Part shown: positions 45,816 through 63,307 of the stretch, in pieces
Layout: each line of letters starts with the position of its first letter
Numbering within the stretch: the first letter of the stretch is position 1
Virus record (IMG/VR): IMGVR_UViG_3300020595_000009
Span: 1-64,000 of that record
Direction: 5' to 3' (one strand)
From: a virus
DNA: 64,000 nt
Position numbers and translations under genes: made by a program
Notes under the pieces: generated by a model
What the model was told of the DNA's origin: nothing
Seen by the model: the letters and a program-made list of their open reading frames with translations, nothing else
Databases searched by the model: none

Positions 45816-45830
45816 TAGTTTTCTCCTTTA

Positions 45831-47837: not shown

Positions 47838-48786
47838 ACCATGGCTCATCTATAAGTTTGTACATTTTAATCAACTGTCGGATACCATCGTCTAGATCAT
47901 ATTTGCATTCAAAACCCAGATCATAAAGCTTTTGGCTGCTAACAATATAGTCTCTCTTGTCCGGATCTTGAGTAAATTCAGCTTTTATGATTTCAACCGG
48001 TATATGCTGTTGAATTTTTTTAGCTAATTGTAATTTGTTCATATTAATAGAGTCATTTCCTATGTTAAATGTCTCATTTTTACATTTGTCCCAATTGTTG
48101 ATAACAAACTGAAAAACACGACATATGTCCCAAATATGCACATAATTTCTCATAAATTCACACTCATAAAGTACTAAAACCTTGTCTTTGAGCGCCTTTA
48201 GAACAAAATTATTAACTAGCAAATCCGTTCTAGCTCTGCTTGATGGTCCAAAAACAGTTGCCAACCTAAGTGTACAGCTGCCATCAGTATCTTGATAGAC
48301 TTTCTCTGCTTCAACTTTTGTTTTTCCATAGAGAGAAACCGGGTTTAGAGGGGACTCTTCAGTACATACAGATCCGCTCTTGCTAACACCATATCCAGAG
48401 TTGGTGCACGGGTAAATCAAGATCTGCTCTGGTCTTTTAACTTCTGCTATCCATTTATTAATCTCGAAGTTAATCTCAACGGCGTCACGCTCCCTCTTGT
48501 CACAAAGAGGAAATCCGACCAGGGCTGCAAGAGGAATGATGACGTTCGCCTCTGCTAGTAGATGTCGGAAGGGTTCTTTTTTGCGGACGTCCAGTTTTTT
48601 AAAATAAAAATTGGGGTCGCCAACATACCTCAATAAAGATGTTGGCTCATATTCTAGTGTGTCAACAACTTTAACTGTATGGCCTTCCTTGAGAAAGAAG
48701 CCAACCAGCTCGCTTCCTATGTATCCAGCACCCCCGGTTATAAGAATATTTAATTTTTTTGTAAAATCTGTTGTTATTGCTTTCAT
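47824..48786 (-). CDS. NAD-dependent sugar epimerase/dehydratase
   Basis: This extended short-chain dehydrogenase has ILITGGAGYIGSELV at the start (NAD site) and the catalytic Y-xxx-K in SLYGKTKVE at about residues 170-178. The start is the ATG at 48786, which overlaps the upstream stop as ATGA and has GGAG eleven bases before it, giving about 320 residues. The triad S/T-x-x-x-G-Y near CTNSGYG is present. Target sugar cannot be told: UDP-glucose 4-epimerase-type or a 4-keto-sugar reductase are possible. Confidence 0.9.
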   Translation of the reverse strand: MKAITTDFTKKLNILITGGAGYIGSELVGFFLKEGHTVKVVDTLEYEPTSLLRYVGDPNFYFKKLDVRKKEPFRHLLAEANVIIPLAALVGFPLCDKRERDAVEINFEINKWIAEVKRPEQILIYPCTNSGYGVSKSGSVCTEESPLNPVSLYGKTKVEAEKVYQDTDGSCTLRLATVFGPSSRARTDLLVNNFVLKALKDKVLVLYECEFMRNYVHIWDICRVFQFVINNWDKCKNETFNIGNDSINMNKLQLAKKIQQHIPVEIIKAEFTQDPDKRDYIVSSQKLYDLGFECKYDLDDGIRQLIKMYKLIDEPWYGNY

Positions 48787-49073
48787 CTTTCTATTTCTCC
48801 AAAGATCCACTGTTTAAACATAACTGCATCAGACATTTTCGCAAACAGGGGGTTTCTAAAGGCCGCAGGAGTGTTTTGCTCAAAAAAGTAATGTCCGGAC
48901 CAAGCAAAAGGATACACAACCAGTGGTGCTAAGAATAGTAATAAAAACTTAAATGTTATAATACAGTAAATTATGTAACTCATTGTTACAAGTTGGCCCA
49001 GCACGTGCAGTCTTCGACACCATAAGTTTTGATGTAAAGATAAATATTTATTATAGTACTCCTTAAAATTCAT
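48783..49073 (-). CDS. Mpo1-like (DUF962) membrane protein
   Basis: This 96-residue protein resembles the DUF962/Mpo1 family: a start with SLHQNLWCRRLHVLGQL, two membrane segments (about residues 30-60) and a YPFAWSGHYFFEQNTPAAF block followed by NPLFAKMSD. The family has conserved histidines; yeast Mpo1 is a dioxygenase in 2-hydroxy fatty acid breakdown. Family members are small membrane proteins in bacteria with unknown work. In a phage sugar island it is unexpected; it might modify a lipid carrier, but I see no proof. Confidence 0.8.
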   Translation of the reverse strand: MNFKEYYNKYLSLHQNLWCRRLHVLGQLVTMSYIIYCIITFKFLLLFLAPLVVYPFAWSGHYFFEQNTPAAFRNPLFAKMSDAVMFKQWIFGEIER

Positions 49074-49809
49074 TTATTGTATTAACTCCTTTTGTCTGAA
49101 CAACCCTTGTTGCACACTCGTTTGCAAACTGTATGGCACAAGCAATATCTTTATTTTTTATAAAATCAACGCCCAAGGCGGCCAAGAAGGTATCCCCAGC
49201 GCCACAGACGTCTTTAATTTCTACCTTCCCAACTGGGAAGTGTGTCTTGCCCAACCGGCAACCACCAGAACCAAGAGTCACGATTACTTTTTCCTGTGCC
49301 CATTTTGTTTTTTCAATGAATCCCTTCGAAGCTTCGTATTCGTGCTTGTTGATCTTGATGTATTTGCACCCCTTGCAATAATCTCCTATAATTTTTTTTG
49401 TATCAATAAAAACCAAATTATGATTATCACAAATAAATCTAATATCTTCTTCAAGCAGAAAACCTTTATTATAATCTGACACTATAATCAACTCAAAATC
49501 TGATAAGAAATCACGATCTAAATTTTGGATTCTTTCAATTTTTGCTTCTCCGGAGTCTACCCGAAGAAACATATGGTTTGTCTCTTCGTGCACGAATCTT
49601 TTTTTTTCAATTAAAATTTTATTTGTTTTTATTATTGCCGGAACCCCTAGGGAAGTTACGTTTTGATAAACGTTCCCAGCCATGCCTAAGTTTTGTTTTT
49701 CATGAGATGGTATAAAAACAGGCACAGGCGCATCTGGACAAAGGCGATGAGAACTCCCATATACATGTACATCTCTGCAGCTATCACCAACAACTAGAAT
49801 CCTACTCAT
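49063..49809 (-). CDS. PfkB-family sugar kinase (HldE N-terminal type)
   Basis: This 248-residue protein is a ribokinase-family carbohydrate kinase. It begins MSRILVVGDSCRDVHVYG and carries the signature DVCGAGDTFLAAL near residues 199-211, with the catalytic aspartate in GAGD. The central part NLGMAGNVYQNVTSLG is like the sugar-binding segment of HldE. In HldE it phosphorylates D-glycero-beta-D-manno-heptose 7-phosphate at C1. It is about 70 residues shorter than the kinase half of HldE, a possible compact version. With the HAD and nucleotidyltransferase genes it could make an activated heptose. Confidence 0.87.
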   Translation of the reverse strand: MSRILVVGDSCRDVHVYGSSHRLCPDAPVPVFIPSHEKQNLGMAGNVYQNVTSLGVPAIIKTNKILIEKKRFVHEETNHMFLRVDSGEAKIERIQNLDRDFLSDFELIIVSDYNKGFLLEEDIRFICDNHNLVFIDTKKIIGDYCKGCKYIKINKHEYEASKGFIEKTKWAQEKVIVTLGSGGCRLGKTHFPVGKVEIKDVCGAGDTFLAALGVDFIKNKDIACAIQFANECATRVVQTKGVNTINEF

Positions 49810-50224
49810 TTTTCATTCTCCGGGGCCATGATATATCCCAGTCCTTGAAGTCGGCTGCTAAACAATCAATCTTGTAATCTTTTCGGCCGCCGGCGACTTC
49901 TTGAATTTTGTTCTTTGCCACATTTCTTATCCCATTGAGACCATGAGTTAACTCTAAATTGTTTCCATCTTTGATACCTTTTCTATAGTTTGCTTCATTG
50001 TGCCAGATGTGCAGATTCATTTGAGACAAAACAACTATAGCACGAATGGTCTCGGCTGTGATGGGCTCGCTTGCTTCTAACAATAGTTGAATATCATGCA
50101 CGATATCTGATATCTCACCAGCATATTCTTTCTTGTGCTCGGTTATAAAAACTTCTTTTAATTGTGCAATTGATAATCTATCTATTAGTTCAGATAAAGT
50201 TGGTAAATATAATCTATTATTCAT
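49802..50224 (-). CDS. DUF4254-like protein
   Basis: This 140-residue protein resembles the DUF4254 family: LSELIDRLSIAQLKEVF, a helical middle and LSQMNLHIWHNEANYR-like segments. It is all helical with no membrane part. In bacteria such proteins often stand beside glycosyltransferase genes; function is unknown to me. Family assignment is from memory of the pattern and only moderately sure. It overlaps both neighbours by a few bases. Confidence 0.68.
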   Translation of the reverse strand: MNNRLYLPTLSELIDRLSIAQLKEVFITEHKKEYAGEISDIVHDIQLLLEASEPITAETIRAIVVLSQMNLHIWHNEANYRKGIKDGNNLELTHGLNGIRNVAKNKIQEVAGGRKDYKIDCLAADFKDWDISWPRRMKNE

Positions 50225-51134
50225 TTTGTTTTTTTGTTTCCTCTATAAAGTATTTTACACTATTTTTTATACCGGTGTCAAGAGAGAATTTAAATAAAAA
50301 ATCTTTGTTTAAAGCAGCTAGTGTTTTTTGTATATTTATTTTTTTCTCTTTTACTCCTACGTATTTTGTTAAATCATGGCCAATTAAAGTTTGATCAAAG
50401 TTAAAATTCTCAGCTACCATGCTAGCAAAATCATTAATTGAATTATCTTGGCCTGTGCCTATGTTATAAATCTCATTTTCTTTATCAAGTAGGTTTAACA
50501 TGATATCGACGGCGTCATCAACATAAACCAATTCCCTTCTTTGCTCGCCATCACCCCAGACAACAAACTCGTTATTGTAGTTTTTAGCATTATAACAATT
50601 ACGAATAAAATCAAAAATAAAATGATTATCATCTAGTTCAAAATTAGGCCCATACAGCGTTGAGGGGACAAAATACAGCCACTTCAATCCATATTGTTTC
50701 TCTATTGCATGCAGGCCTGCTAGGAGCATCCTCTTCGTCATGGCATAGGTGTAGAGAGACTTTTCTGGCTTTCCTAAGAGGTAATTTTCCTCAACCATCT
50801 CTAAGTCCGGACTGTACGAACAACTAGTCCCCATACAGATCATCTTTGCATGCGGCTGATTTGTTTTCCAATACTCAAGGATATTAGTGTTGATGGCTTG
50901 ATTCGCTAGCCATTGATCTCCCGGATGTTTTAAACAATAATCACCGGCTTTCGTTACTGCGGCTAAGTGGAAGATAAGATCAAACCGTATGTCATTGTAC
51001 CGGTATAGGTTCTCAATATTTTTAAGGTTTGCTATCTTTGAGTTAGAGATTGAGATATCCCATCCTAAGCGCTCGACCTTTTTGACTAAGTGTTTTCCGA
51101 GGAAACCAGTGGCGCCCGTTATTAAAACTTTCAC
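50217..51134 (-). CDS. GDP-fucose synthase-like NAD-dependent reductase
   Basis: This 305-residue extended short-chain dehydrogenase begins KVLITGATGFLGKHLV and has the catalytic Y-xxx-K in YTYAMTKR (about residues 138-142), the S in GTSCSYSP and an HLAAVTKAG segment; these fit 4-keto-sugar epimerase/reductases of the GDP-L-fucose synthase type. The start codon is GTG, overlapping the upstream stop as GTGA. It would act on a 4-keto-6-deoxy sugar made by a dehydratase such as the RmlB-type gene here, but the nucleotide carrier cannot be told. Confidence 0.87.
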   Translation of the reverse strand: MKVLITGATGFLGKHLVKKVERLGWDISISNSKIANLKNIENLYRYNDIRFDLIFHLAAVTKAGDYCLKHPGDQWLANQAINTNILEYWKTNQPHAKMICMGTSCSYSPDLEMVEENYLLGKPEKSLYTYAMTKRMLLAGLHAIEKQYGLKWLYFVPSTLYGPNFELDDNHFIFDFIRNCYNAKNYNNEFVVWGDGEQRRELVYVDDAVDIMLNLLDKENEIYNIGTGQDNSINDFASMVAENFNFDQTLIGHDLTKYVGVKEKKINIQKTLAALNKDFLFKFSLDTGIKNSVKYFIEETKKQNE

Positions 51135-52339
51135 TCTACAACTCTCAATGTGGGAAATGGAATAATAAATTTTACACCACGATCGATCAAGTCTTTGTTT
51201 TTCTCTATTATCTCTTTTTCAAAATTGTGAGACAAAAGAAGATAGTAATCTGGGTGTTCGACAGTCTTTTCATCGATAATAGGGATGTGGGAACCCGGTA
51301 AGTAATGGCCAATTTTAAGCTCGTTTATCTCGACAGACATGTCGATTAGAGAGTTATCAATGCCAAAGTAATTAAGTAGGGTGTTTCCTTTTGCCGGTGC
51401 ACCATAAGCGTAAATGGTTTTGCCGCTAGCTTTGAGCTTTTGTAGGAAATCTTTTAAATCACCTTTCTTGCTCTCAACCTTTTGCGCAAACTCTTTAAAG
51501 CTGTCTGTTGTGTATTTTTTATCATTTTCATGCAGCTCAAGATACCGATCGGTCTTTACATCATAGCTCCCGCCCCTATGTGTAACCTTTGCAATAATCG
51601 AACCACTGTGGATTTCAGAGTAGTAAGCATCGAAGATCTCTAAATCATATCGTTGCAAGAGGCTCTTAAGGCTAGCAAGAGTGTAGTAGCAGAGGTGTTC
51701 GTGGTAGATTGTGTCAAAATTCATCTTCTCAATCATTGTGCCGGCATACATAAACTGTACGATCAATACACCATCGTCTCTAAGTGATACCTTGATACCG
51801 TCAATAACGCTGTGCAGTTCCTCCAGGTGAAAGAACACGCCGGATGCATTGTAAAGCTTTACAGAGTTGTTTCCGAGATGTTGGTCTACACACTCCCTGT
51901 TGAAAAATTCATTAATAGTCCGGACGCCACTCATCTTAGAGTAGTCTGATACCCTACTAGAAGACTCAACGTTTAAAACATTTTCAATGCCGCACTCCTT
52001 GTATTGTAATAGTTGCGAGCCGTCATTCCCACCAATATCAACCACAAGATCGTCCGACTTCATATCAAATTGTTCGACGTTCTCACTTGCAACCTCATAA
52101 AAATGATTTCGCAGTGTCGATGTCACACCAGACAGGTAGCAATGATCTGCAAACATTTTTTCTTTCGGTACCGTATGGTCTAGCTGCAGCAAATTACATC
52201 CCTCGCAACACTTAAGCCTGAGTGGGAACGTCTCTTCTCTCCCAACTTCCTCTTCTTTTAGAAAATCATTACACCAAGGGTGCTCCCCGAGATCCAAAAT
52301 TAATTCTAGCTCTTTTGAGCCACAGCCTCTACATTTCAT
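51131..52339 (-). CDS. Sugar C-methyltransferase (zinc-binding N-terminus)
   Basis: This 402-residue protein fits the three-part family of deoxysugar C-methyltransferases. Residues 1-70 are the zinc domain (CRGCGS at 3-8 and later LKCCEGCNLLQ). The SAM-binding core follows with VVDIGGNDGSQLL near 105 and an FFHLEELHSVI block. The C-terminal domain contains YGAPAKGNTLLNYFG. Relatives transfer a methyl group to C3 or C5 of 4-keto-sugars in antibiotic or O-antigen sugars. It follows the NAD-dependent reductase gene with a four-base overlap, so the two may act in sequence on one branched deoxysugar. Confidence 0.9.
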   Translation of the reverse strand: MKCRGCGSKELELILDLGEHPWCNDFLKEEEVGREETFPLRLKCCEGCNLLQLDHTVPKEKMFADHCYLSGVTSTLRNHFYEVASENVEQFDMKSDDLVVDIGGNDGSQLLQYKECGIENVLNVESSSRVSDYSKMSGVRTINEFFNRECVDQHLGNNSVKLYNASGVFFHLEELHSVIDGIKVSLRDDGVLIVQFMYAGTMIEKMNFDTIYHEHLCYYTLASLKSLLQRYDLEIFDAYYSEIHSGSIIAKVTHRGGSYDVKTDRYLELHENDKKYTTDSFKEFAQKVESKKGDLKDFLQKLKASGKTIYAYGAPAKGNTLLNYFGIDNSLIDMSVEINELKIGHYLPGSHIPIIDEKTVEHPDYYLLLSHNFEKEIIEKNKDLIDRGVKFIIPFPTLRVVE

Positions 52340-53298
52340 TGTTTATTCCTTATTGTGCTTAAAAAGTTTGAAACTTGATAAGATTTAGATTTTTCATATG
52401 CATTATCAACAATGTGTTGATAGTCATTCCAATTATTAACTATGTCTTTTATTTTTTTGTTTAAGTCTTCTTGATCTTCGAAATAAACAAAGTCTTCACC
52501 AGGCTTGTAGTAAAGCTCGGCAATATTCCACGGATCTCTCATAACAAGATTCAAAGTTCTCGAAAAGGCGGCTTCGTGCATCCTGGTTTTAAATTGTGGC
52601 ATTATATTCCATCGATTTTCTCCAACCTCTTTGAAAGCTTCATTTTCATTCCATTTATCAAAGGACATTATGTTTGGAATGTGCTCCTGGTTAACGTGTA
52701 CTATGTTGTAGCATACAGATATTTTTGTTTTCGCAATAAGATTAACTTTTTCTTGGAACGCTAAATTTAAGTTTGTAGCATAGCCATTTTTTATACATGC
52801 GATAGTTAGGTTGTTTATGTGGCTTGTCATTGTGCAATAGCGATAAGCAAAATTTTTCATAACTTGCAAGCACTGCACGTGCTCGATCCCGTGGATACCA
52901 CCATGATATATCACATCGTATTGCTTTTCTTGCCTCTCTGGTATTAGCGAAGGGCTGTATGGATAGAAAAGGTTAGCGTACTCTCGATCTAATCCAAGTG
53001 AGTTCAACCACTGGTTTGTGTATGGGCAAATAGAATAGACCTCGTTAAAAAAGGACTCTCTGTCAAAAGTATGTACGCCATCGATGACCGAGGGTTGCGC
53101 AAATTCGCACGGTGCCCAGTTGTTGAAAAAAATTCGTCTCTTAAAGTCAGCATATCTATTATGTAAGATGGTATTTGTTGCAGAGTTATAACCATAAAAC
53201 AATACGTTTTCATTGGAGGGTTCAGAAAAATCTTTAAAACCCCAATGAAATGCATTCGTATCAGGAACTTCTGCTGTTAGGTCTTCGACTATTTGCAT
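52336..53298 (-). CDS. Glycosyltransferase-like protein (CgeB / GT1-type C-terminus)
   Basis: This 320-residue protein has a pattern like the C-terminal half of GT-B transferases (spore-maturation CgeB-like): RRIFFNNWAPCEFAQPS early on, a central IYHGGIHGIEHVQ step and a late AFSRTLNLVMRDPWN block then a short helix. No DXD motif. It lies between the methyltransferase and GT-A-like genes. It probably transfers a sugar; donor and acceptor are unknown. Confidence 0.68.
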   Translation of the reverse strand: MQIVEDLTAEVPDTNAFHWGFKDFSEPSNENVLFYGYNSATNTILHNRYADFKRRIFFNNWAPCEFAQPSVIDGVHTFDRESFFNEVYSICPYTNQWLNSLGLDREYANLFYPYSPSLIPERQEKQYDVIYHGGIHGIEHVQCLQVMKNFAYRYCTMTSHINNLTIACIKNGYATNLNLAFQEKVNLIAKTKISVCYNIVHVNQEHIPNIMSFDKWNENEAFKEVGENRWNIMPQFKTRMHEAAFSRTLNLVMRDPWNIAELYYKPGEDFVYFEDQEDLNKKIKDIVNNWNDYQHIVDNAYEKSKSYQVSNFLSTIRNKQ

Positions 53299-54050
53299 TA
53301 TACAAACCCTCTTTTGTTGATATCGATGTTATATTCTTTAATCATAGTGGCCATTTTATCCGGATATTCGGCTAGGTTCCACTTCCCCTTCACCAAAGCA
53401 GTCGATATATGTGGAAAAACTATTGAATCATAATGATAAAGGCCTCTCTTTTGTTCACCATAATAACAATAAGATCCCCTAATCCCCAACTCCTGACATG
53501 TCTTGGTCGCTTTGAATTCAAAAGAATTCTCCCAATCAACATTTGCAATGTGTGCATCGGGTCCTTTTTTATGGATTAGTTTCAACTTTTCCGTTCGCCA
53601 AAGCGCTGCTTGGTTGGTGTAGAAGTATGGAACTTCATTGTAAAGATGGTGTATATTATCGCATCTTTTATACTTTGGGTAATCAACATCAACTAGACCT
53701 CCTTTCATAAGCCTTATGAATGATAAGTTACTTTCTTTACTCAACAACGAAACAAAGTCGCTAATGAGATCGATGCGCACATTTTCGTAAAGTATGTAAT
53801 CTTCGGATATATATATACAATACTCCTCTTTAACAGACTCAATACACGAGCTAAATTGTTCCTGGTATTTTTTGGTCGAATCGTACTTTACTATGTCATA
53901 CCCTGCAGGCATGGCACCTAAATCATCGTCGACAAAGACGTACTTTTTATGAAAAAAACCTTCTGGTATATGACGATCAAGCCTGTCAAAGAAGGCTTTC
54001 CATACATCATTATTTTTACTTATTGTATTAATTACAAGCGCTATTTTCAT
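53298..54050 (-). CDS. Glycosyltransferase-like protein (GT-A-like)
   Basis: A 250-residue protein beginning MKIALVINTISKNNDVWKAF, with an early VFVDDDLGA and an ISEDYILYEN motif at about 99-108, the place where GT-A enzymes keep their DXD metal site. The later HLYNEVPYFYTNQAALWRTEKL block, a strand-helix set, supports the GT-A fold. It is coupled with the neighbouring glycosyltransferases. Activity is not proved by motifs alone. Confidence 0.62.
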   Translation of the reverse strand: MKIALVINTISKNNDVWKAFFDRLDRHIPEGFFHKKYVFVDDDLGAMPAGYDIVKYDSTKKYQEQFSSCIESVKEEYCIYISEDYILYENVRIDLISDFVSLLSKESNLSFIRLMKGGLVDVDYPKYKRCDNIHHLYNEVPYFYTNQAALWRTEKLKLIHKKGPDAHIANVDWENSFEFKATKTCQELGIRGSYCYYGEQKRGLYHYDSIVFPHISTALVKGKWNLAEYPDKMATMIKEYNIDINKRGFV

Positions 54051-54707
54051 TTATTTATTTTGATCAAAGCTGTATAAGGCTGATTTCATAGCATTCACCT
54101 TCTCACCGCAGCCACCTACACCTATTGCGTGATAAAAGCGGCAGTTAGACGTGCGCTGCCCGTAGTCACATGACAGCACTTTATAATCTAACGGCGGGGT
54201 ACCGCCGCCGGCGATGAGATAATCATTGAACTGAATCTGAGGGTATCCAGCTGGAGGGTTTTCAGTGATCAGTGTAGATATCAGATCCATGAATTCTGAA
54301 AACTTAACCAAAGCCTTTGAGGTACAGTTGATCCCAAGAAAACCCATATTTACACCGGCCGACATGCCGCTGTTGTCATCATACTGTGTGACTAAATCGT
54401 AGTCATCTAGAAACAACTCGATGTTTCGGATAGTGTCTTTCTTATACCTGTTAAACACAATGTCGGAGTCGATAAACAGGATCTTAGATCCCACGTTCTC
54501 CTCGATCAACTCGGGTAAACGCAGCCATCGTGACAGCATTAACTTCATATATTCAATCGTTCCAGTTTGGCCGGCGAGGCTCTTGGTTGAGTCGTCACCC
54601 CCTAGTAACCGGACTATCTCTAGGTCCTCAAGTTCTGCGCAGCTTTGTTCTAGCAGTTCTAAACATGATATCACAGAGTTGGTGTAAAAAACATAAGCTT
54701 TCATCAT
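54051..54707 (-). CDS. Nucleotide-diphospho-sugar transferase-like protein
   Basis: This 218-residue protein has the DXD-type motif ILFIDSDIVF near residues 75-84 and a following MSAGVNMGFLGIN block, like GT-A families that hold donor through DxD. It is short but has the catalytic half. The start is the first of two ATGs at 54707 and 54704, overlapping the stop of the radical-SAM gene. It probably adds a sugar to the same glycan as the neighbours. Confidence 0.72.
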   Translation of the reverse strand: MMKAYVFYTNSVISCLELLEQSCAELEDLEIVRLLGGDDSTKSLAGQTGTIEYMKLMLSRWLRLPELIEENVGSKILFIDSDIVFNRYKKDTIRNIELFLDDYDLVTQYDDNSGMSAGVNMGFLGINCTSKALVKFSEFMDLISTLITENPPAGYPQIQFNDYLIAGGGTPPLDYKVLSCDYGQRTSNCRFYHAIGVGGCGEKVNAMKSALYSFDQNK

Positions 54708-55684
54708 GAATCACCTTTGAGTTGATCAACTAGATTTGCATACCGTCTTCCTTCGCCTGGCCATCTAGTCTGCTTCCAATCCGGACATTGACCGCAAAAT
54801 TTATGACAGCCAAACTCATTACGGACATGAGCCTCTCTTAGAGATTTAAGAAAAGGGCCTTGCCAAGCTTCTTTGATCGTGGTCTTGCGAAAATCCGTAA
54901 ACGTTGATTTATACTTCCAGTCTGTAGGGCAGAAGGACAGGTATCCTTTGGGGTCGAGAGTCAGTCTTTCCCATGGGTAAAGGCAAGGGTACCTCTCTTC
55001 TTCTTTTTGTTCATGATGCATTCTTTTGGCGATGTTGTCGACAGCCCCGGCGGCTGAATGAAGACGCCTAATAATAACTTTATCTGCTCCATTTTCTGTC
55101 CAAAACTTCCGGAAGTTGTTGATCTCGTGGGTGTTTTGTGGTTGTTCTACGAAACTAACGACCACTTTTGTACCTAGTTGGTCCCGCCTTACCCAGTCAA
55201 TGAGTCTAAGGACGTTGGTTTTAGTTCTTGTCAGGTCACCATTGACTCTTACCTTCGAATAGGTCTCCGGCGTGTGGGCATCAATGCTAATATCAATCAT
55301 GTGAATTCCGGAGTCTAGAAGCTCACGTGTTTTTCTTTCTCTCATGATGGTGCCATTCGTCGTCAAACACACAAAAGTGTTTGAATTATCCACGGCGTAT
55401 TTTACCATCTTATAGCCTTCTGGGTGTATTAAGGGTTCTCCATTACTAGTGTAACGTATATATTTACAAGCGCCGGCTGCATCGTCTCGTACTTCGTGCA
55501 CCATTTTTTTATTTAGTGCTGGCTCTAAATATCTTTTTGCATAATACTCTGATTTTTTGAACACTGGATGGGGGCAATGGATACACGCCAAGTTGCAAAT
55601 CTCTGTAATGTCCATTATCAATTGAGATGGAAACTCAGCTGAGAGGCCATCTCGAAAAGCATAATTTTCTATGTTGTTTGTCAT
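54704..55684 (-). CDS. Radical SAM protein with SPASM-type C-terminus
   Basis: This 326-residue protein has the radical-SAM [4Fe-4S] motif C30-x3-C34-x2-C37 (ICNLACIHCPHP), the GE motif in TSNGEPLIH and further motifs along the partial barrel. The C-terminal 80 residues contain CLYPWERLTLD, LSFCPTDW and a cluster FGCHKFCGQCPDW, the cysteine-rich SPASM region for auxiliary iron-sulphur clusters. SPASM enzymes modify peptides or sugars with radical chemistry. In a sugar island a dehydrogenation, epimerisation or amine step on an activated sugar is possible. It is unusual for a phage. Substrate unknown. Confidence 0.9.
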   Translation of the reverse strand: MTNNIENYAFRDGLSAEFPSQLIMDITEICNLACIHCPHPVFKKSEYYAKRYLEPALNKKMVHEVRDDAAGACKYIRYTSNGEPLIHPEGYKMVKYAVDNSNTFVCLTTNGTIMRERKTRELLDSGIHMIDISIDAHTPETYSKVRVNGDLTRTKTNVLRLIDWVRRDQLGTKVVVSFVEQPQNTHEINNFRKFWTENGADKVIIRRLHSAAGAVDNIAKRMHHEQKEEERYPCLYPWERLTLDPKGYLSFCPTDWKYKSTFTDFRKTTIKEAWQGPFLKSLREAHVRNEFGCHKFCGQCPDWKQTRWPGEGRRYANLVDQLKGDS

Positions 55685-55697
55685 TTTTTAATTCAGT

Positions 55698-56381
55698 TTA
55701 TATAAAATTGATCGATTGTTTCCCACAGCTGAATAGCAAATCTATTATGCTCACCTTGTGCACAAAGTCACCATGCAGCTGCGGATATTCTGGATATTTG
55801 CTGTAATCCATCCATGTTAACTTGATCCCGGCCAATTCGAACTTATCTCGATCGATATAATCTTTAGCGGCAGGACCGGAGACATACTCAGATGCGCCGG
55901 CCTGAGTGCATATGTCGATTAGCCTATCAGTTTTGTCTTCAGCTGACAAATTATACTCTGCAGAAGAAACTATATTTGTATTAATATCCAAGTAGTCGCA
56001 TATACCGACTATAAAATGCCGATTAACTTCAGAGATGGTGTTATAATTAGATGTCGTATATAAATTCTCGATGTATGGAAGGACTTTCTTATAGTCTGGG
56101 GCTTTAGAATATGCTTCTTTGATTGACTTAAGATGACTGCTTCTCCAATCTCCATCATTAATAATTATTGCATCTTTTATCTTTTGATGATACCGCCCCT
56201 TGACGCCTACCGGCACAGTTAGCCACTTCAGGCCATGACATGTCTTAATCTTGTTCCTGTTTCGCCAATCACGTTTAGTGTATTGTACGTCGTCGTACAG
56301 CACAAAAGTGTCGACTGACTGGATCATGTCAAAATAACCTTTCCAGGATATATAATTTGATTGATTGATAGCTATCTTCAT
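55698..56381 (-). CDS. WbqC-family protein
   Basis: This 227-residue protein matches the WbqC family by its opening MKIAINQSNYISWKGYFDMI, DTFVLYDDVQYTKRDWRNRN, the WLTVPV block and the closing HGDFVHKVSIIDLLFSCG. WbqC-like genes occur in O-antigen and modified-amino-sugar clusters; some are linked to amino-sugar acylation with amino acids. Its biochemical work is not settled. It lies between the radical-SAM and DegT-like genes, which supports an amino-sugar route. Confidence 0.88.
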   Translation of the reverse strand: MKIAINQSNYISWKGYFDMIQSVDTFVLYDDVQYTKRDWRNRNKIKTCHGLKWLTVPVGVKGRYHQKIKDAIIINDGDWRSSHLKSIKEAYSKAPDYKKVLPYIENLYTTSNYNTISEVNRHFIVGICDYLDINTNIVSSAEYNLSAEDKTDRLIDICTQAGASEYVSGPAAKDYIDRDKFELAGIKLTWMDYSKYPEYPQLHGDFVHKVSIIDLLFSCGKQSINFI

Positions 56382-56382
56382 A

Positions 56383-56994
56383 CTAGACGGTTTTATGGTC
56401 CTTAAATAACTTAAACTCTCTGAGATCTTTATAACTAGGGAGCTCCGGGAGATCCTCCACGTGATCCGGATAGTTTTGCATAAGGGTAAGACCCCTTGCC
56501 GCTTGCTCTGGTGTCATATATGCATTCCATCCATTGATCTCAATGTTGTCATCGTGGTATGCTACTTCACCTCGGCCTTCATATCTCCCCTTCCGAAACC
56601 ACTCGGCCGCATCCTTATCGTCAGTTAGGATCATGCCACCTTTACCTATTTTTAAATGCTTCTTGATGTGGAACGATAAACACATATAGCTACCTGGCAT
56701 GTACATATTGCTAGTGAGCCTTTTTGCTGCATCATATATGGGGTAGGGTTCGAGTTGATATATCCCCTTCCAGTCATAATCTTTAAACTTAACCGTGCCT
56801 CCGGCATGCATAATAGATTGGGGCACTGAAAGATATGTACGGGCTGGGATGATAACGTCTTTTACTTCCAGATACTCACAGCAAAGCAGGATTGCGTCGG
56901 TGCAGTTATCAGTCGAAATTGCATACTTGGATCCGCAATAATCAGCCATGGTTTCTTCGAACATTTTCACTATTTTATATGGATTGTGTCTCAT
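56383..56994 (-). CDS. Compact DegT/DnrJ-type PLP protein
   Basis: A 203-residue relative of sugar aminotransferases (usually about 370-400 residues). It keeps FEETMADYCGSKYAISTDNCTDA, the VIIPARTYLS block, an aspartate in YDAAKR and the PLP-lysine block SFHIKKHLKIGKGG followed by MILTDD. A stretch of about 30 residues between the strand and DAA blocks is missing, as is the C-terminal small domain of about 150 residues. It may be a degraded gene, a compact non-catalytic or epimerase-type form. No frameshift is visible, and the gene has clean overlaps with neighbours, so it is probably expressed. Confidence 0.8.
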   Translation of the reverse strand: MRHNPYKIVKMFEETMADYCGSKYAISTDNCTDAILLCCEYLEVKDVIIPARTYLSVPQSIMHAGGTVKFKDYDWKGIYQLEPYPIYDAAKRLTSNMYMPGSYMCLSFHIKKHLKIGKGGMILTDDKDAAEWFRKGRYEGRGEVAYHDDNIEINGWNAYMTPEQAARGLTLMQNYPDHVEDLPELPSYKDLREFKLFKDHKTV

Positions 56995-56995
56995 G

Positions 56996-57382
56996 TCATC
57001 TCTCTAATATATAGTATTTTCTCTTGTATCCACAACTTTCAAACAATCTCAGGCTAGCCTCGTTGGCAATTTTTACTTTGGCTGCAGCTGTTGGGTGATG
57101 TTTGGCCATTTCGCTGACCATGTAGCTTCCAATCTTCATGCCTTGAAACTCCGGACTCACCGCCACTCTTATATCGCCTTCGATAACACCAATAAAGCCA
57201 ACCGGTGTCTCATCAGACAAACATATAAAATAACAATCAGAATGTTTCTTCATAAAACGTTCATGAGTTGTTTGCTCGATATGTTCTTGCTCGATAAAGG
57301 ACTCCTTGGTGCCAGGAGCATTCCTTAAATTTCTTATGAACTCCCAGAATGTGTAGTCGTTCTTTACCAATTTTAGCTCCAT
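56996..57382 (-). CDS. GNAT-family N-acetyltransferase
   Basis: A 128-residue GNAT protein. Acetyl-CoA binding motif A is VAVSPEFQGMKIGSYMV near residues 74-90, with the Q/R-x-x-G-x-G/A step as QGMKIG. The closing block NEASLRLFESCGYKR is motif B. It probably acetylates an amino sugar made by the neighbouring DegT-like protein; the order DegT-GNAT is usual in amino-deoxysugar clusters such as FdtB-FdtC and PglE-PglD type sets. Substrate is inferred from context. Confidence 0.88.
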   Translation of the reverse strand: MELKLVKNDYTFWEFIRNLRNAPGTKESFIEQEHIEQTTHERFMKKHSDCYFICLSDETPVGFIGVIEGDIRVAVSPEFQGMKIGSYMVSEMAKHHPTAAAKVKIANEASLRLFESCGYKRKYYILER

Positions 57383-58167
57383 ATATCCCTCTGGCTACTA
57401 TAGTGATTACTGTGCCCCAACCAATAGGAGGTTAGATAGCCTCTTGTATGGACCCAGCCCTCAAGATTTAAAAGCGGGTTTAAGCAACTTCCAATATCTA
57501 GAAAAGTATTCTGATTGTCTTCTTTAAAGCACTCATAGATAATAAAATTTGATAACGAGGCAGCTGAACATAATACTATGGCGTCTTTAATGCTGTTTTT
57601 AGATATGTATGTCTTTACCTTCTCAATAGTATCATAACTATCAATCATGCAATTTGAGCCAACTCTAAACTCTTTCGAAATCTCAAAAGGTAATCGATTA
57701 GTGTCTGCTAGCTCGTTAACTACATAAATGACTTCTCTTCTTTTGAACAAAGGAATTATTTCTTCTACAAATCTTTTATAATTTGCATTTATTAACAAGT
57801 TTGCAAAAGTTAAATTATCTCCAGGGGCGCCGTGTTCTTTCACCATCCAGGCGAAGTTATCCTTGCCGACATGGGAGTCTGTTGGTGTGCAGATTCCCTT
57901 GAAGTACCCTTCTTGATTGTGCTTGAAACATTTAAGTAAAAGTGCACGATATGATTGGTGCTTTTCTGGAATGAACTCTTTCTGCTCCTCTTTTGTATAG
58001 ATGTTGCTTCCTATAATATCACCTGTTTGATAAAATTTATCTGCTAAAACTAACTTTTTATTCTGCATGATAAACAATTCACCATCAGAAAATCTCGTAA
58101 ACGCAAAATTTTCTTTATTTTTTAATTTATTTAAAATTGTATTAAAAGCTTTAGTATAATCTTTCAT
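57373..58167 (-). CDS. GT-D fold glycosyltransferase-like protein
   Basis: This 264-residue protein has FTRFSDGELFIMQ at residues 23-35, matching the R-x-G/S-D-G-E motif of GT-D type transferases (DUF1792-like), in which the D-x-E pair binds metal and donor. A later IVLCSAASLSNFIIYE block and the end DIGSCLNPLL fit the same fold. GT-D enzymes add glucose or similar sugars to glycans. It stands between GNAT and WecB genes. Confidence 0.8.
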   Translation of the reverse strand: MKDYTKAFNTILNKLKNKENFAFTRFSDGELFIMQNKKLVLADKFYQTGDIIGSNIYTKEEQKEFIPEKHQSYRALLLKCFKHNQEGYFKGICTPTDSHVGKDNFAWMVKEHGAPGDNLTFANLLINANYKRFVEEIIPLFKRREVIYVVNELADTNRLPFEISKEFRVGSNCMIDSYDTIEKVKTYISKNSIKDAIVLCSAASLSNFIIYECFKEDNQNTFLDIGSCLNPLLNLEGWVHTRGYLTSYWLGHSNHYSSQRDIWS

Positions 58168-59155
58168 TTTTGTTCAATTTATTCAATATCATGACGACCC
58201 GTTTAGATGTTTGGCCGTCACCGAAAGGGCATTGTGTCGTTGACGGTACCGCTCTCAATTGCTTCTCAAAGGCTGTATGTAGGGTTTGTATCTGAACTAG
58301 CGTTGAATACTCACCTAGAGATTCAGGACGCTCTGTTGTGTCTCTGCATACTAAACAATGTTTTCCTAGGAAAGATGCCTCTTCTTGAATTCCGCCGGAG
58401 TCCGTTATAATCATTTTACACTGAGCTATTTCTGTTATAAACTGTTCGTATTGTAGTGGCTCTATCACCCTAACTTTTTTAAAGACGTCTCTATGTTGTG
58501 CGACATTCGGATTGGGGTGCAGTGGAATGAAAAAATCCAATTCATGATGGTGGTTTGCTATCTTTTCTATTTCTTTAAACCACAATCTAATGTTATCATG
58601 GTTTTCTCTTCTATGCAAGGTAATTATAATTTTATTTGTTTCCGATACCTTAAGATTAATCAAATTATCTAGTACACTATTGCCAACAACAAAAATATTA
58701 TCTTTAAAATTCTCAGTTATCAGATTTTGTCTTGTCAACTCTGTTGGACAAAGGTGAATATCTGCCATAGCCGAAATAGAGCGACGGTTAAATTCTTCTG
58801 GGTATGGATGACTCTTGTTGTAGGTTCTCAATCCTGCTTCTAGATGAATTATCTTCTTATTCCGATGAAAGGCAGCTAGCGCAACAGCAAAGGATGACGT
58901 CGTGTCTCCTTGTACCAGTACAGATGTAATCCGATGAAAGATCTGATTATTGTTTAGCACTGAAGCGACTATAGAGTCTAGTCTGTTATCGCCAGGTTTG
59001 ATATTGAGTGCTAGACAGTTCTGAACGTTTTTTATTAAATCTTCATGCTGACCTGTAAAAAGCACCCTGTATGGAACTTTACTATAATCAAAAGCGTCAA
59101 GTATCGGCTTGATCTTTATCCATTCTGGTCTAGTCCCAAAAGATACTAAAATCAT
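58151..59155 (-). CDS. UDP-GlcNAc 2-epimerase-like enzyme (WecB family)
   Basis: This 334-residue protein is a non-hydrolysing UDP-N-acetylglucosamine 2-epimerase relative: FGTRPEWIKIKP at residue 6, HLEAGLRTYN, YPEEFNRRSIS, ITLHRRENHDN and TDSGGIQEEASFLGK are the family blocks in order. It would form UDP-N-acetylmannosamine or a related 2-epimer. A few residues differ from bacterial WecB, and the protein is about 40 residues shorter, but the catalytic histidine/glutamate set is retained. It provides an amino-sugar donor for the glycosyltransferases next to it. Confidence 0.92.
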   Translation of the reverse strand: MILVSFGTRPEWIKIKPILDAFDYSKVPYRVLFTGQHEDLIKNVQNCLALNIKPGDNRLDSIVASVLNNNQIFHRITSVLVQGDTTSSFAVALAAFHRNKKIIHLEAGLRTYNKSHPYPEEFNRRSISAMADIHLCPTELTRQNLITENFKDNIFVVGNSVLDNLINLKVSETNKIIITLHRRENHDNIRLWFKEIEKIANHHHELDFFIPLHPNPNVAQHRDVFKKVRVIEPLQYEQFITEIAQCKMIITDSGGIQEEASFLGKHCLVCRDTTERPESLGEYSTLVQIQTLHTAFEKQLRAVPSTTQCPFGDGQTSKRVVMILNKLNKNERLY

Positions 59156-60771
59156 TAAACAACCTCGTTAACTGTTGCCCACCCATTTTTGAGCGCATTT
59201 TGCACACACAGATCCCTTTCATGAAAAAACTGTTGATGTGTTACTTCGTTGTTGTTTGACGTTGCTTTTGAATCGATTCCAAGCTCATTTCCTAGAATTG
59301 ATCCATGCAGACTCTGATCGGTGGGAGGATGGGCCGGACAAAATGTTTTAATGCCGCCATGGATTTTTGCCATTGAAGAAAACTGTATATCTTCACCATT
59401 CTCCCAAGTGAAGGGCTTTTCTTTCCAAAGGAAACTTAACCACTCTCTCTTGAAGAACCATGCATGGCCAACAAGATCAACTTCTGTTGGTTCGCTATTT
59501 CTTGTTGGCCAGCCACACCGATCGTGATTGGCGTACTCTGCGCTTTTAAGTATGATGCCAGCAGATCCCAATATTCCTTCTTCCCTCTCCATCGTCTCAA
59601 AGCAGTTTTTATGCCAATTACCACCTGGGATCGTGTCATCGTCATAGACTGCGATGAACTCAGTATCTGCCAGAAGGGCGGCGGCAAAACGACCATAAAA
59701 CTTCCAATTGTGGTTATTCAAAAACACTTTGTCGACATCTAAAGAGTCGAAATCAAAACCATGATTATCTTCATGATCATTGACCCAAAGCCAAACCTGG
59801 TTCGGCGGGCAGCTTTGCTCCCTTATTGCCTTGACTTGTAGTGCCAGATTAGCCGGGCGCCTGTAGCAATTCAAGATAACTGTTAGATCAGCTTCTTTGT
59901 TTTTCTTTTCTGAAGAAATGCTATCAACAATAGTTTGTACAATTTCATCTCTAGAGTTAGAAACAAAATCAATCAGATCTTCACCTTTCAGGCCTGCAAA
60001 CCAAGATTCGTGAGTGCACCCGTTTAGTTTGTTTGTTACAACTGAACAATTGAGCATTCTTGCTTCTAGTACCACACGACAAAAACTTTCGGGCGTTTGA
60101 GGAAAGAAGATAAACCTTTCTGCTCTCGAAAGATTGGCTATATAGTCACTATAATCTGTTTTCTTTAAACAAGTAAATTCAATACTTTTTTCTTTACAGT
60201 ACAATTCCGCCTGTTTATAGCCCTTTATGGGGTTTGGGTCTTTTAATACTAAGTTTGTATTTTTTTGATTAGTTAAGTTTTTTCTGATTATTTTTAGCTG
60301 TTCTTCATCCCACAAGGAGCAAGAAAGATTAATTGTATTTTGTAAGCTTAAATTTTTATTAATTATGTCTTCATGGAACTTAGACTGACAAAACAAATTT
60401 TTTGCATTTTGATAAAATAATTTGTTGATAATAAGATGAGCAGGTACTTTAAAATCATTATTATAAATTCCTGGATTTCTATTTGCGTCGTATTTATGAT
60501 CGTGTTCAACTATAGAATACGTGTTTTTATGCGCCTGAATGTGCTTTATCAGGTTTTTATCTAGAGCAGTAAAGTTTGAAAACAAGAAATAAAAATCATG
60601 TTTTAAGTAAAAATTATAATATGCTCTTGTAAAATCCTTACTGTTGAACTTTACAACTTTAAGAGCTCTTTTCTCTAATTCCCTGATTAAAACAGCATCA
60701 TAAATCTCAGCACCACCAAAAACCTGGTCGGCAAAGAAGTCAGAAACAAAGACTATACCTTTTTTATGCAT
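59155..60771 (-). CDS. Two-domain glycosyltransferase (GT-B-like plus GT2)
   Basis: A 538-residue fusion. The N-terminal part (about 1-285) has GT4-like features: FFADQVFGGAEIYDAVLI at the start and a late block AERFIFFPQTPESFCRVVLEARMLNCSVV in part. The C-terminal part (about 295-538) is GT2/GT-A: TVILNCYRRPANLALQV, then VYDDDTIPGGNWH near residue 375 holding the DDD metal site and a later GHAWFFKREWL. It may add two sugars in sequence to one acceptor. The fusion is intact; no frameshift is seen. Confidence 0.85.
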   Translation of the reverse strand: MHKKGIVFVSDFFADQVFGGAEIYDAVLIRELEKRALKVVKFNSKDFTRAYYNFYLKHDFYFLFSNFTALDKNLIKHIQAHKNTYSIVEHDHKYDANRNPGIYNNDFKVPAHLIINKLFYQNAKNLFCQSKFHEDIINKNLSLQNTINLSCSLWDEEQLKIIRKNLTNQKNTNLVLKDPNPIKGYKQAELYCKEKSIEFTCLKKTDYSDYIANLSRAERFIFFPQTPESFCRVVLEARMLNCSVVTNKLNGCTHESWFAGLKGEDLIDFVSNSRDEIVQTIVDSISSEKKNKEADLTVILNCYRRPANLALQVKAIREQSCPPNQVWLWVNDHEDNHGFDFDSLDVDKVFLNNHNWKFYGRFAAALLADTEFIAVYDDDTIPGGNWHKNCFETMEREEGILGSAGIILKSAEYANHDRCGWPTRNSEPTEVDLVGHAWFFKREWLSFLWKEKPFTWENGEDIQFSSMAKIHGGIKTFCPAHPPTDQSLHGSILGNELGIDSKATSNNNEVTHQQFFHERDLCVQNALKNGWATVNEVV

Positions 60772-62047
60772 ATTCCAGTATTTCTTCGTCGTTCAAGGTA
60801 GGCACTCCAAGAAAGCTTTCTTTGTAAAATATTTCTTCAAAGAATCTCTCAAAAGTTTTTTCTTCATCGGGCCAGTTTTCTTCAAGCCATTCTGCTAGCT
60901 GGTTTGCTTTCTTTTGCATTGCGCCGTGATTCTCCATCATCGAGCGCATCTTCATTTTAAATGAGCCCTCCTTTGGAAAACACCACATAGAATCAGGAAT
61001 AATAACTTTATCCCATACAACTTCTTTCTGGACATGGCGAAGTTCATAATCTACCTTAAGTGGAATGAACTTGTTTTTTCCCTTTACAGGCATCGTCAAG
61101 AAGTCGGTGTGCCCTGACCAAGCCGGTGCGATGATGGGAAGGCCTGCTTGTGCTGCCTCGAATAGCGGAAGCCCATAACCTTCACCGTGAGTTGTTGTGA
61201 TAAAGGCGTGAATGTCCTTGTGCCGATAAAGAAGCGCCATCTCCTCTTCTGTCATATAGCCATGAAGAAGATATACCTTACATTTCTTTTCTTTGTAATC
61301 TTCGTGATCTAGAAGAACCTTGATTCTCTCAATACAATGAACCCGATCAATCTCGCAGTTCTTTGCTAGGTTGGTCTTTAGAACTAGGCCAACATTTTCA
61401 CGATCAAAGTTTTCTTCGATAAACCACTTGACTAGGTTCTCTAGATTCTTTCGTGGCCCCCATTGGGCAACTGAAAGAAAGTTAAAATCTGTTTCAAAAG
61501 AGATTTGGTTTTCAATTGACTCTGGGCTGTCTTTAAAGTCCCAATCTTTTCTTGGATAAGGAATAACTTCAATAGGTGTTTCGTTTTTGTAGCCCTTGAC
61601 GATTTCTCCGGTTTGTTGGTTTTGTGCGTCATAAGAAGTTTCGTCAAAAGCATAACGAGCAAACTGAGACGGAACAATGATTTTATCCATCAAATTTGCC
61701 TTCTCAATCCATTCTCCCGCAATCTTTGTGGTTTCAATACCTGCGGTGACGCCAATGTTAATCGGGGCCATGCGCTCCCATTCAAGAGGTATTGTGACTT
61801 GTATTGAGACGTCTGGCTGAGGCATTTGCTTTTGTTGCATTAGCATAGCTGTCTTTTGGATGAGTGAGTCAAGCCATGCTCGCTCCTCATCATCTTCAAA
61901 GATCCAGTTTGTCGCACCCCAGCTGGTTGAAAGAAGGTAAAGATCTAGTTCTTCCTCTCTTGAGCGAAGCGAACGAAGAACCAAGCGTGTGTGTTCTCCA
62001 TAACCTGATTGCGATAGCGCTGGGCCTCTAACTAATACCTTTTTCAT
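60764..62047 (-). CDS. GT4-family glycosyltransferase (first of a pair)
   Basis: This 427-residue GT-B protein begins KKVLVRGPALSQSGYGEHTRL, with the glycine-rich acceptor loop, and has a TTTHGEGYGLPLFEAAQAG block near residue 285 with the E-x7-E motif of family GT4 and a following SGHTDFL. A donor-side SVAQWGPRKNLENLV block lies near residue 195. It and the next gene are arranged in tandem and share layout. They probably elongate a glycan; specificity is unknown. Confidence 0.9.
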   Translation of the reverse strand: MKKVLVRGPALSQSGYGEHTRLVLRSLRSREEELDLYLLSTSWGATNWIFEDDEERAWLDSLIQKTAMLMQQKQMPQPDVSIQVTIPLEWERMAPINIGVTAGIETTKIAGEWIEKANLMDKIIVPSQFARYAFDETSYDAQNQQTGEIVKGYKNETPIEVIPYPRKDWDFKDSPESIENQISFETDFNFLSVAQWGPRKNLENLVKWFIEENFDRENVGLVLKTNLAKNCEIDRVHCIERIKVLLDHEDYKEKKCKVYLLHGYMTEEEMALLYRHKDIHAFITTTHGEGYGLPLFEAAQAGLPIIAPAWSGHTDFLTMPVKGKNKFIPLKVDYELRHVQKEVVWDKVIIPDSMWCFPKEGSFKMKMRSMMENHGAMQKKANQLAEWLEENWPDEEKTFERFFEEIFYKESFLGVPTLNDEEILEYA

Positions 62048-63306
62048 ACTACCTCCTCAAATGTCCAAGTTGAATGATTTTTTCTGCTTTCCCAAGATCC
62101 ATAACGATTATGAATGTCTTCTAGGAGTGTTGGCCACTTATCACAAAAGTCTTTAAAGTTATAGTTCTTTTGTACGTGTTCTCGACCAGCTTCACCAAGT
62201 GCTTTTCGCTCTTCTTCGGGCATTTCCATAATCTTCGTGAGAGCCTCTATAAAGTCTTCCTTGTTGAGGCGGTCCTCGTAGATGTAAGGAATGTCTTGAG
62301 AGCCTATGATGGCCTTTGAGGGCGGTTCTAGGCCTATTCCAAACCAGTTCTCACCATCAGTTACTTGTTCTTGGAGCCCACCGGTCATATTTACAATGAT
62401 TGGGGTACCACAAGAAAGAGATTCAAGGGTTGCTAGGCCAAAACCTTCAGCATCTGAAATGTTGAGGGTACAATCGACCATGTTATAAATGTTCGCAAGA
62501 ATCTGCGGTGGATACTTTTGCTTTGAAAAGAATACTTGGCCATCTTCGTGCATGTCAAGTTTCTTTGCAATTGCTTCTAGATCTTGACCGTTTGGATCTT
62601 TTGGTTCTGTATGCATAATAAGAGTTGCCTTGTCCTTTCCAACTCTTTCCAAAAACTCTTTGAACCAAAATAGTAGGGTACCTGACTGCTTTCGTCGTGC
62701 GTTTCGGTTGTTCCAAAAGAATACAAACTTTTCGTGGGACTCTCCTAGTTGTTCTTTCCTAAGATCTGATGTAGCTTCTGTTGGCATTGGCTTGAAGATG
62801 TCGCCATCAACTGCGTGTGGAACATAATGAGATTCAACATCCGGCGCAACTTCTCGAACAATAGCATCTGTAACCTTTGAGATTGAACAGATAACATCAT
62901 TTGAGTTATAAAACTTTTCATTATAATGGGGAGCTGGAAAGTTGTCCCATACGTGATAATAAACCATCGGCATTTGAGAACGGATCTCGTCTTCCATTTC
63001 CCAAAGCCACCCAAAGAAACGTGGATCTGTCATAAACCACAAAAGGTCCGGTCGATGATTTCTCATAATCGACCGGACCACATCAGGTGTTCCAAACCCG
63101 TCAATCGGGTAAATAACCCAATCATCGCCCCATTCCTCTGTTTTGATGGGGTCGTATTTTGGGTGTTTTATAGCACCACCAAGTGAAATAACTTGGTACT
63201 TTCCTGTTTTTAGAAGGGATTCTATTACATACTTTGTTTGAGTGCCAACACCAGACGGGGAAAGAGGCATGTCTGATATTGTTAGAATCTTAATCTTGTC
63301 TGTCAT
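62044..63306 (-). CDS. GT4-family glycosyltransferase (second of a pair)
   Basis: The start is the ATG at 63306, one base after the stop of the nuclease gene and preceded by GAGG; a start at 63342 would overlap it by 35 bases. The product of about 420 residues begins MTDKIKILTISDMPLSPSGVG and has a VFFWNNRNARRKQSGTLL block and the E-x7-E motif in SDAEGFGLATLESLSCGTPI. It is the first gene of the sugar island in transcription order and follows a nuclease gene. Confidence 0.9.
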   Translation of the reverse strand: MTDKIKILTISDMPLSPSGVGTQTKYVIESLLKTGKYQVISLGGAIKHPKYDPIKTEEWGDDWVIYPIDGFGTPDVVRSIMRNHRPDLLWFMTDPRFFGWLWEMEDEIRSQMPMVYYHVWDNFPAPHYNEKFYNSNDVICSISKVTDAIVREVAPDVESHYVPHAVDGDIFKPMPTEATSDLRKEQLGESHEKFVFFWNNRNARRKQSGTLLFWFKEFLERVGKDKATLIMHTEPKDPNGQDLEAIAKKLDMHEDGQVFFSKQKYPPQILANIYNMVDCTLNISDAEGFGLATLESLSCGTPIIVNMTGGLQEQVTDGENWFGIGLEPPSKAIIGSQDIPYIYEDRLNKEDFIEALTKIMEMPEEERKALGEAGREHVQKNYNFKDFCDKWPTLLEDIHNRYGSWESRKNHSTWTFEEVV

Positions 63307-63307
63307 T

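Follow-up and report, generated by a model that had tools for sequence, protein, structure and literature searches.

What would a marine phage do with a radical enzyme, a protein of the WbqC family and a shortened sugar aminotransferase encoded one after another? The question is raised by positions 54,704 to 56,994 of a 64,000-nucleotide stretch of viral DNA (the window; positions 1 to 64,000 of IMG/VR record IMGVR_UViG_3300020595_000009). Other genes in the full record, which comprises 168,882 bases, look like phage genes for structure and replication. The three open reading frames (ORFs) are intact and co-oriented, have no internal stops, and lie where a sequence-only reading of this DNA had placed them:

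54704..55684, minus strand: radical S-adenosylmethionine (SAM) protein, 326 amino acids, with CxxxCxxC cysteines C30/C34/C37 and an auxiliary domain with C234/C252/C297/C300, predicted to be of the twitch type and BtrN-like (PF04055, PF13186)
55698..56381, minus strand: WbqC family protein, 227 amino acids (PF08889, E=2.1e-81; AlphaFold 2 model)
56383..56994, minus strand: compact DegT/DnrJ/EryC1/StrS sugar aminotransferase, 203 amino acids (PF01041 in two stretches; alignment to perosamine synthase 3bn1)

We conclude that these genes very probably form a shared module for amino-sugar tailoring.

The radical SAM protein matches PF04055 (E=8.5e-16) and PF13186, the SPASM model (E=6e-9), and the sequence-only reading had taken it for a SPASM-type enzyme with extra iron-sulphur cysteines. 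The extra cysteines held up; the SPASM assignment did not. A SPASM domain has seven cysteines. In 31 of 31 family sequences, exactly seven cysteines of the entire protein are invariant, C30/C34/C37 and C234/C252/C297/C300, and C293 and the remaining cysteines vary within the family. Because exactly four auxiliary cysteines are invariant, and because they align to BtrN without gaps, the sequence predicts a twitch enzyme with a single auxiliary cluster rather than a SPASM peptide maturase with seven cysteines. One auxiliary cluster characterizes a twitch domain and two a full SPASM domain (PMC9012708). The PF13186 match, together with weak matches to NCBIfam maturase models such as TIGR04317, could be taken to speak for a maturase of the SPASM type, acting on a peptide or on a partner protein from the island. 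These models lie far under cut-off (~76 bits against 380), and no curated maturase model in NCBIfam was matched over its cut-off, all those listed falling far below. With four auxiliary cysteines rather than seven, and with DegT and WbqC as its stable partners, the protein is very unlikely to be a maturase, and we rejected the peptide-maturase reading. The sequence-only reading had looked to peptide-modifying families for contrary evidence; among solved structures, the best match across both domains is BtrN, which dehydrogenates a small molecule rather than modifying a peptide.

In butirosin biosynthesis, BtrN works with the DegT enzyme BtrS. It was the best PDB match of the family profile (7e-11) and gave the sole printed PDB alignment that reached the auxiliary domain, where all four cysteines aligned without a gap. 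BtrN is a twitch radical SAM enzyme that oxidizes the aminocyclitol 2-deoxy-scyllo-inosamine to its keto form (PMC9012708). The phage protein resembles the BtrN/BtrS system (2-deoxystreptamine/butirosin) in its predicted single four-cysteine auxiliary cluster, its gap-free register and its DegT-family partner. It differs from BtrN in being ~75 amino acids longer, in lying in surface-glycan and nucleotide-sugar clusters, usually near WbqC, and in a substrate that is apparently no aminocyclitol, and overall sequence similarity is distant. Judging from this pattern, we put the identification as a BtrN-like dehydrogenase only slightly short of an even chance.

The WbqC and short pyridoxal 5'-phosphate (PLP)-type identities proposed from sequence were both confirmed. 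The WbqC protein scored 273 bits against PF08889 (cut-off 21.3), covering nearly the whole protein, and is a full-length member of this WbqC-like family, for which we found no structural precedent. Its AlphaFold 2 model had a predicted local distance difference test score (pLDDT) of 93.8 and a predicted template-modelling score (pTM) of 0.91. A Foldseek search matched the model to CTP:glycerol-3-phosphate cytidylyltransferase (E=0.13, probability 0.82); we do not claim a HUP-type nucleotidyl- or adenylyltransferase, as hhalign against the cytidylyltransferases of the window was negative (0.3%). Its linkage to DegT, and to acetyltransferases in the phages, suggests an amino-sugar amine as the site of its action. 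It may be an N-acyl or similar transferase, a possibility that we hold with real doubt.

The compact DegT protein matched PF01041 (E=3e-23; 83 bits, cut-off 19.8) in two separate stretches, as would be expected of a compact protein. In the alignment to perosamine synthase 3bn1, K112 falls at the position of the PLP-lysine; D88 we take, from the family motif, to be the pyridine-binding aspartate. Both residues are invariant in alignments of 22 and 11 rows. Relative to 3bn1 the protein lacks ~42 core residues and most of the ~120-residue C-terminal part, consistently across phages, and does not have the full-length two-domain architecture of ~370 amino acids. Its AlphaFold 2 model (pLDDT 83.7) matches the fold of GDP-perosamine synthase (E=2e-10, TMq 0.68) as well as other sugar 4- and 3-aminotransferases, DesI among them. 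K112, D88 and the shortened form recur in over 20 phages, among them Flavobacterium phage immuto and Synechococcus phage S-SCSM2R. Such conservation of length and active site led us to reject a truncated pseudogene. An even sample of 369 bacterial genomes, all of one class, contained no match to the compact form at 1e-12; a 59%-identical copy on a second phage record (G001) served as the positive control.

The match to DesI brings in a different chemistry. DesI, a DegT enzyme, and DesII, a radical SAM enzyme, are a known pair in desosamine synthesis, and by the same logic the phage protein could be a DesII-like radical deaminase/lyase, or a radical epimerase, acting on a 4-amino sugar made by DegT. 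DesII is not known to have an auxiliary domain of the kind whose four invariant cysteines align with BtrN here, nor was DesII among the PDB sequence matches. We consider this alternative rather unlikely and retain the BtrN-like dehydrogenase as our reading.

Neighbouring genes need not share a pathway. Gene content differs widely from one phage island to the next, and the compact DegT gene is often found without the radical SAM or WbqC gene, as might be expected of mere neighbours in a variable sugar island. The bacterial relatives argue otherwise. Scanning genomes with the phage radical SAM alignment turned up 32 loci whose proteins are 45-63% identical across almost their whole length, in ~11 phyla (Pseudomonadota, Nitrospirota, Nitrospinota, Acidobacteriota, Verrucomicrobiota, Planctomycetota, Cyanobacteriota, Ignavibacteriota, Elusimicrobiota, Bdellovibrionota and Latescibacterota). 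The genes usually run full-length DegT, radical SAM, a TylF/Methyltransf_24 methyltransferase and WbqC. Among the 28 loci with a clean radical SAM ORF, 25 had DegT and 19 had WbqC. The radical SAM gene was directly adjacent to DegT in 19 of those 25 (5.6 expected) and within two genes of WbqC in 16 of those 19 (5.0 expected); neither value was reached in 20,000 permutations, which shuffled genes inside the same loci only and tested adjacency, not whether the genes belong to sugar clusters at all. Where WbqC is lacking, most loci end no more than two genes downstream of the radical SAM gene; L070 is a genuine exception.

The 369-genome sample agreed. The radical SAM gene occurred in three genomes (one of them the centre genome), each time with WbqC within 3 kb, compared with 29 genomes that had WbqC overall. 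DegT was nearby at 17/20 WbqC loci from this sample and directly adjacent at eight (p ~0.002). From the bacterial loci and this sample together, we conclude that WbqC goes with DegT, and the radical SAM protein with both. The Vibrio tubiashii locus contains a WbqC-radical SAM pair, genes resembling RmlA and RmlB, and a DegT protein that exceeds the WecE cut-offs (617 against 435 and 603 against 375 bits); these genes suggest dTDP (deoxythymidine diphosphate)-4-amino-4,6-dideoxygalactose, or a close relative, as the product. The radical SAM, WbqC and DegT set is a widespread bacterial surface-glycan module and probably the source of the phage set, not a phage invention.

In the phage, the module is embedded in a larger sugar island, with these neighbours:

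45215..63342, minus strand: whole sugar island, ~23 co-directional genes including the module (ORFs and families)
45831..46781, minus strand: dTDP-glucose 4,6-dehydratase-like short-chain dehydrogenase/reductase (RmlB-like), with TIGR01181 as best match and TDEVYG and YxxxK motifs in the translation
51131..52339, minus strand: sugar C-methyltransferase (Methyltransf_13/23/14; PF08421, PF08484)
54051..54707, minus strand: probable glycosyltransferase, which follows the radical SAM gene in 3/3 phages that have it and whose homologue in contig L034 matches PF03407
56996..57382, minus strand: GNAT acetyltransferase, 128 amino acids, weakly PseH/RimI-like (PF00583, E=4e-11; NCBIfam PseH 27 bits, RimI 29 bits)
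57373..58167, minus strand: GT-D-fold-like glycosyltransferase, 264 amino acids (PF22882 and NF040628, both under cut-off)
58151..59155, minus strand: non-hydrolysing UDP-GlcNAc 2-epimerase (WecB; TIGR00236, 242 bits, cut-off 210)

The glycosyltransferase at 54051..54707 has no Pfam match of its own, and the GT-D assignment is borderline (PF22882, 25.7 bits, slightly under the 27-bit cut-off). Elsewhere in the island are heptose-type genes in pieces: an RfaE domain I-like kinase (49063-49809), an RfaE domain II-like nucleotidyltransferase (47439-47849), both under their equivalog cut-offs, and a HAD phosphatase (47107-47442). They suggest a second nucleotide sugar from the same island. A small Mpo1-like (2-hydroxy-palmitic acid dioxygenase-like) protein at 48783-49073 is kept in several sibling phages.

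The sequence-only reading had listed GNAT and then GT-D after the compact DegT gene and called for a search for this five-gene order (radical SAM, WbqC, DegT, GNAT, GT-D) in other genomes. It recurs in L034, one of two further distinct viral carriers of the radical SAM gene (70% identical), which has the order of the window throughout: WecB, GT-D, GNAT, compact DegT, WbqC, radical SAM and glycosyltransferase. Another contig (L002) is a near-copy of the window. The other distinct carrier, L003 (69% identical, record G001), is partly rearranged, with GT-D, GNAT, DegT, two glycosyltransferase-like genes, a C-methyltransferase, another methyltransferase, WbqC, radical SAM and glycosyltransferase; SDR (short-chain dehydrogenase/reductase), kinase and cupin genes come after the glycosyltransferase, and DegT belongs to the same contig, a short way upstream. 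Its island appears to occupy a different genomic place, because the flanks read by eye as ribonucleotide reductase on one side and RecA, helicase and primase on the other. Across viral WbqC loci, compact DegT is on the same contig in 17 of 21; in a further two, a DegT of full length lies no more than two genes away. The three phage radical SAM proteins form one clade (support 100/97); its sister is a protein from a gammaproteobacterium, encoded in a locus that reads WbqC-radical SAM-DegT. The WbqC of the window falls in another WbqC lineage than those of L003 and L034 (moderate support). One radical SAM clade with WbqC partners of different lineages suggests that WbqC was replaced while the pair was kept, a hint of functional dependence.

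Set against the variability of the islands, the identical order in a phage of independent origin in our data, a bacterial linkage that permutation came nowhere near, and a WbqC that seems to have been exchanged yet always kept had already disfavoured the idea of neighbours without a shared pathway, which we regard as highly improbable. The proposal that the three genes are coupled as a functional set is borne out by the L034 order, the 17 viral contigs and the significant bacterial linkage; the independent scattering of each gene through other phage islands, named beforehand as the contrary outcome, was not what we saw, co-occurrence being strong.

Compact DegT has a wider distribution of its own. 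Many phages have it without the radical SAM gene; its common companions are GNAT and GT-D, or else a PglD-type acetyltransferase, and in sibling phages a dTDP-glucose 4,6-dehydratase relative is often present as well. PglD-type hexapeptide acetyltransferases stand in the place of the window's GNAT in other phages, and one adjoins compact DegT in immuto and LR756511. The marine phage sugar/lipopolysaccharide islands of immuto and S-SCSM2R resemble the window in combining compact DegT with glycosyltransferases, and immuto has a PD-(D/E)XK nuclease, two glycosyltransferases and then sugar genes, as do the window's relatives; they differ in lacking this radical SAM family and any WbqC match. In S-SCSM2R (L028:8998-12665) a different, shorter radical SAM gene directly follows compact DegT, a second phage pairing of the two families, and a gene annotated as inosamine amidinotransferase lies slightly beyond. 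A weakly GH130-like protein is encoded beside WbqC, an LbH acetyltransferase and compact DegT in other phages (L007:3383-4264, L024:9050-9937, L049:9989-10876), and proteins resembling it follow WbqC-DegT in one bacterium (L100).

How might these enzymes work together? The best explanation of the whole, to which we give about an even chance, is a phage nucleotide-sugar pathway for an amino-dideoxyhexose that flanking glycosyltransferases attach to a glycan. The RmlB-like dehydratase (45831-46781), the likely source of the 4-keto sugar, would produce dTDP-4-keto-6-deoxyglucose. Compact DegT with PLP would transaminate this to a 4-amino-4,6-dideoxyhexose, and GNAT would acetylate the amine. The radical SAM enzyme would then cleave SAM, and the resulting 5'-deoxyadenosyl radical would take hydrogen from a hydroxyl-bearing carbon of the amino sugar; the second electron would pass to the four-cysteine auxiliary cluster, leaving a keto-amino sugar, as with BtrN. 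Finally, WbqC would act on the amine or on the oxidized product, by N-acylation or a similar group transfer. For the carrier (dTDP or UDP) and the stereochemistry of the product the hints are only indirect: the RmlB-like best match in the window and RmlA/WecE in V. tubiashii. The phage set would derive from a bacterial surface-glycan operon of DegT, radical SAM, methyltransferase and WbqC.

The sequence-only reading also suggested that an amino sugar is made and then acylated in a way foreign to the standard fucosamine or bacillosamine routes. The first part is reasonable; the second is not supported for acylation, and only the radical SAM/WbqC part departs from them. In sibling phages, compact DegT followed by a PglD-type or GNAT acetyltransferase, with a dTDP-glucose 4,6-dehydratase, is textbook 4-amino-4,6-dideoxysugar logic. 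The island likewise holds a 4,6-dehydratase, DegT and an acetyltransferase (starting at 45831, 56383 and 56996), the gene set for bacillosamine or for Qui4NAc/Fuc4NAc (4-acetamido-4,6-dideoxyglucose/-galactose). It shares this succession of 4,6-dehydratase, DegT and GNAT/PglD-type acetyltransferase with the dTDP-4-amino-4,6-dideoxyhexose routes (RmlB, VioA/WecE, VioB/acetyltransferase) and the bacillosamine route (PglF-PglE-PglD), and differs in a DegT of 203 rather than ~380 amino acids and in the additional radical SAM and WbqC proteins.

Several points weigh against this pathway. We infer its substrate, the order of its steps, the dehydrogenase reaction and the chemistry of WbqC; the role of WbqC comes from genomic context, and its fold had no PDB match at E<0.001 (best E 0.025). 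The resemblance to BtrN, though strong as a pattern, does not amount to proof: the relationship is distant, the auxiliary-domain stretch of the alignment scores 15 bits alone, and four-cysteine auxiliary clusters may also occur in enzymes of other chemistry. The C-terminal region contributes to the active site in full-length DegT enzymes, and with most of it missing the activity of compact DegT is not assured. The RmlB-like protein scores 299 bits against TIGR01181, under the cut-off of 365. Finally, most phages with compact DegT have no radical SAM gene, and many have no WbqC in the stretch read.

The destination of the sugar is a separate matter; host-surface masking, virion decoration and DNA modification are candidate biological roles. 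Many glycosyltransferases flank the module, and glycosyltransferases encoded by viruses are able to decorate DNA with a variety of glycans, a form of hypermodification (Pyle et al. 2024, cited in PMC12619734), so that the amino sugar might end on phage DNA. PF00303 (thymidylate synthase/dCMP hydroxymethylase) was absent from the phage record and nine relatives, and 9 of 14 control genomes were positive; some of these records may not be complete, and bases can be modified by other routes. DNA hypermodification is weakened by this result, and we think it improbable.

Beyond the window, the phage record (G000) carries a gene for transfer-messenger RNA (L109:6199-6507; record ~69,698-70,006) with predicted tag ANNNVEFDSVALAA* and transfer RNA genes for Asn, Met, Arg, Lys and Thr. 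It also encodes a TilS N-terminal domain (68651-69262), a GroEL whose subfamily models are over cut-off (116865-118451), an IMP dehydrogenase/GMP reductase-like protein under the equivalog cut-offs (120638-121660, L111), a bacterial-type DNA polymerase III alpha subunit (126262-129705) and ThyX (135655-136365). Many short ORFs of 'YPNGxKxWYLNGKxHREDGPAVEWANG'-like repeats, with several neighbouring copies, lie at ~88-108 kb (L110 and L111).

Such a phage set had been thought possibly undescribed. In the literature searched we found no functional tie of WbqC to radical SAM enzymes or to phages, and nothing on point about phage sugar islands or about 4-amino-4,6-dideoxyglucose (Qui4N) with glycine, although the N-acylation of Qui4N in Shigella type 7 may offer a lead; the radical SAM family had no match in 50,697 phage records. 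The claim holds to that extent, and is limited by the module being widespread in bacteria. The DegT-acetyltransferase half looks standard; what seems undescribed is the other half, radical SAM-WbqC, together with the phage's compact DegT.

We propose, tentatively and at somewhat less than an even chance, that DegT, a twitch radical SAM enzyme and WbqC (joined in many bacteria by a TylF-like methyltransferase) constitute an undescribed and widely distributed radical route to a keto-, diamino- or otherwise oxidized amino sugar in bacterial surface glycans, captured by marine phages with a minimal ~200-amino-acid DegT fold. If so, the operon would be a concrete biochemical target for the function of WbqC and for the role of radical SAM enzymes in surface-glycan clusters. 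Compact DegT, conserved in many marine phages but without a match in the 369-genome bacterial sample, would rank as a remarkably small member of its fold among sugar aminotransferases, and it is easy to assay. Radical dehydrogenation of the BtrN type would extend from antibiotic aminocyclitols to cell-surface sugars, across ~11 phyla.

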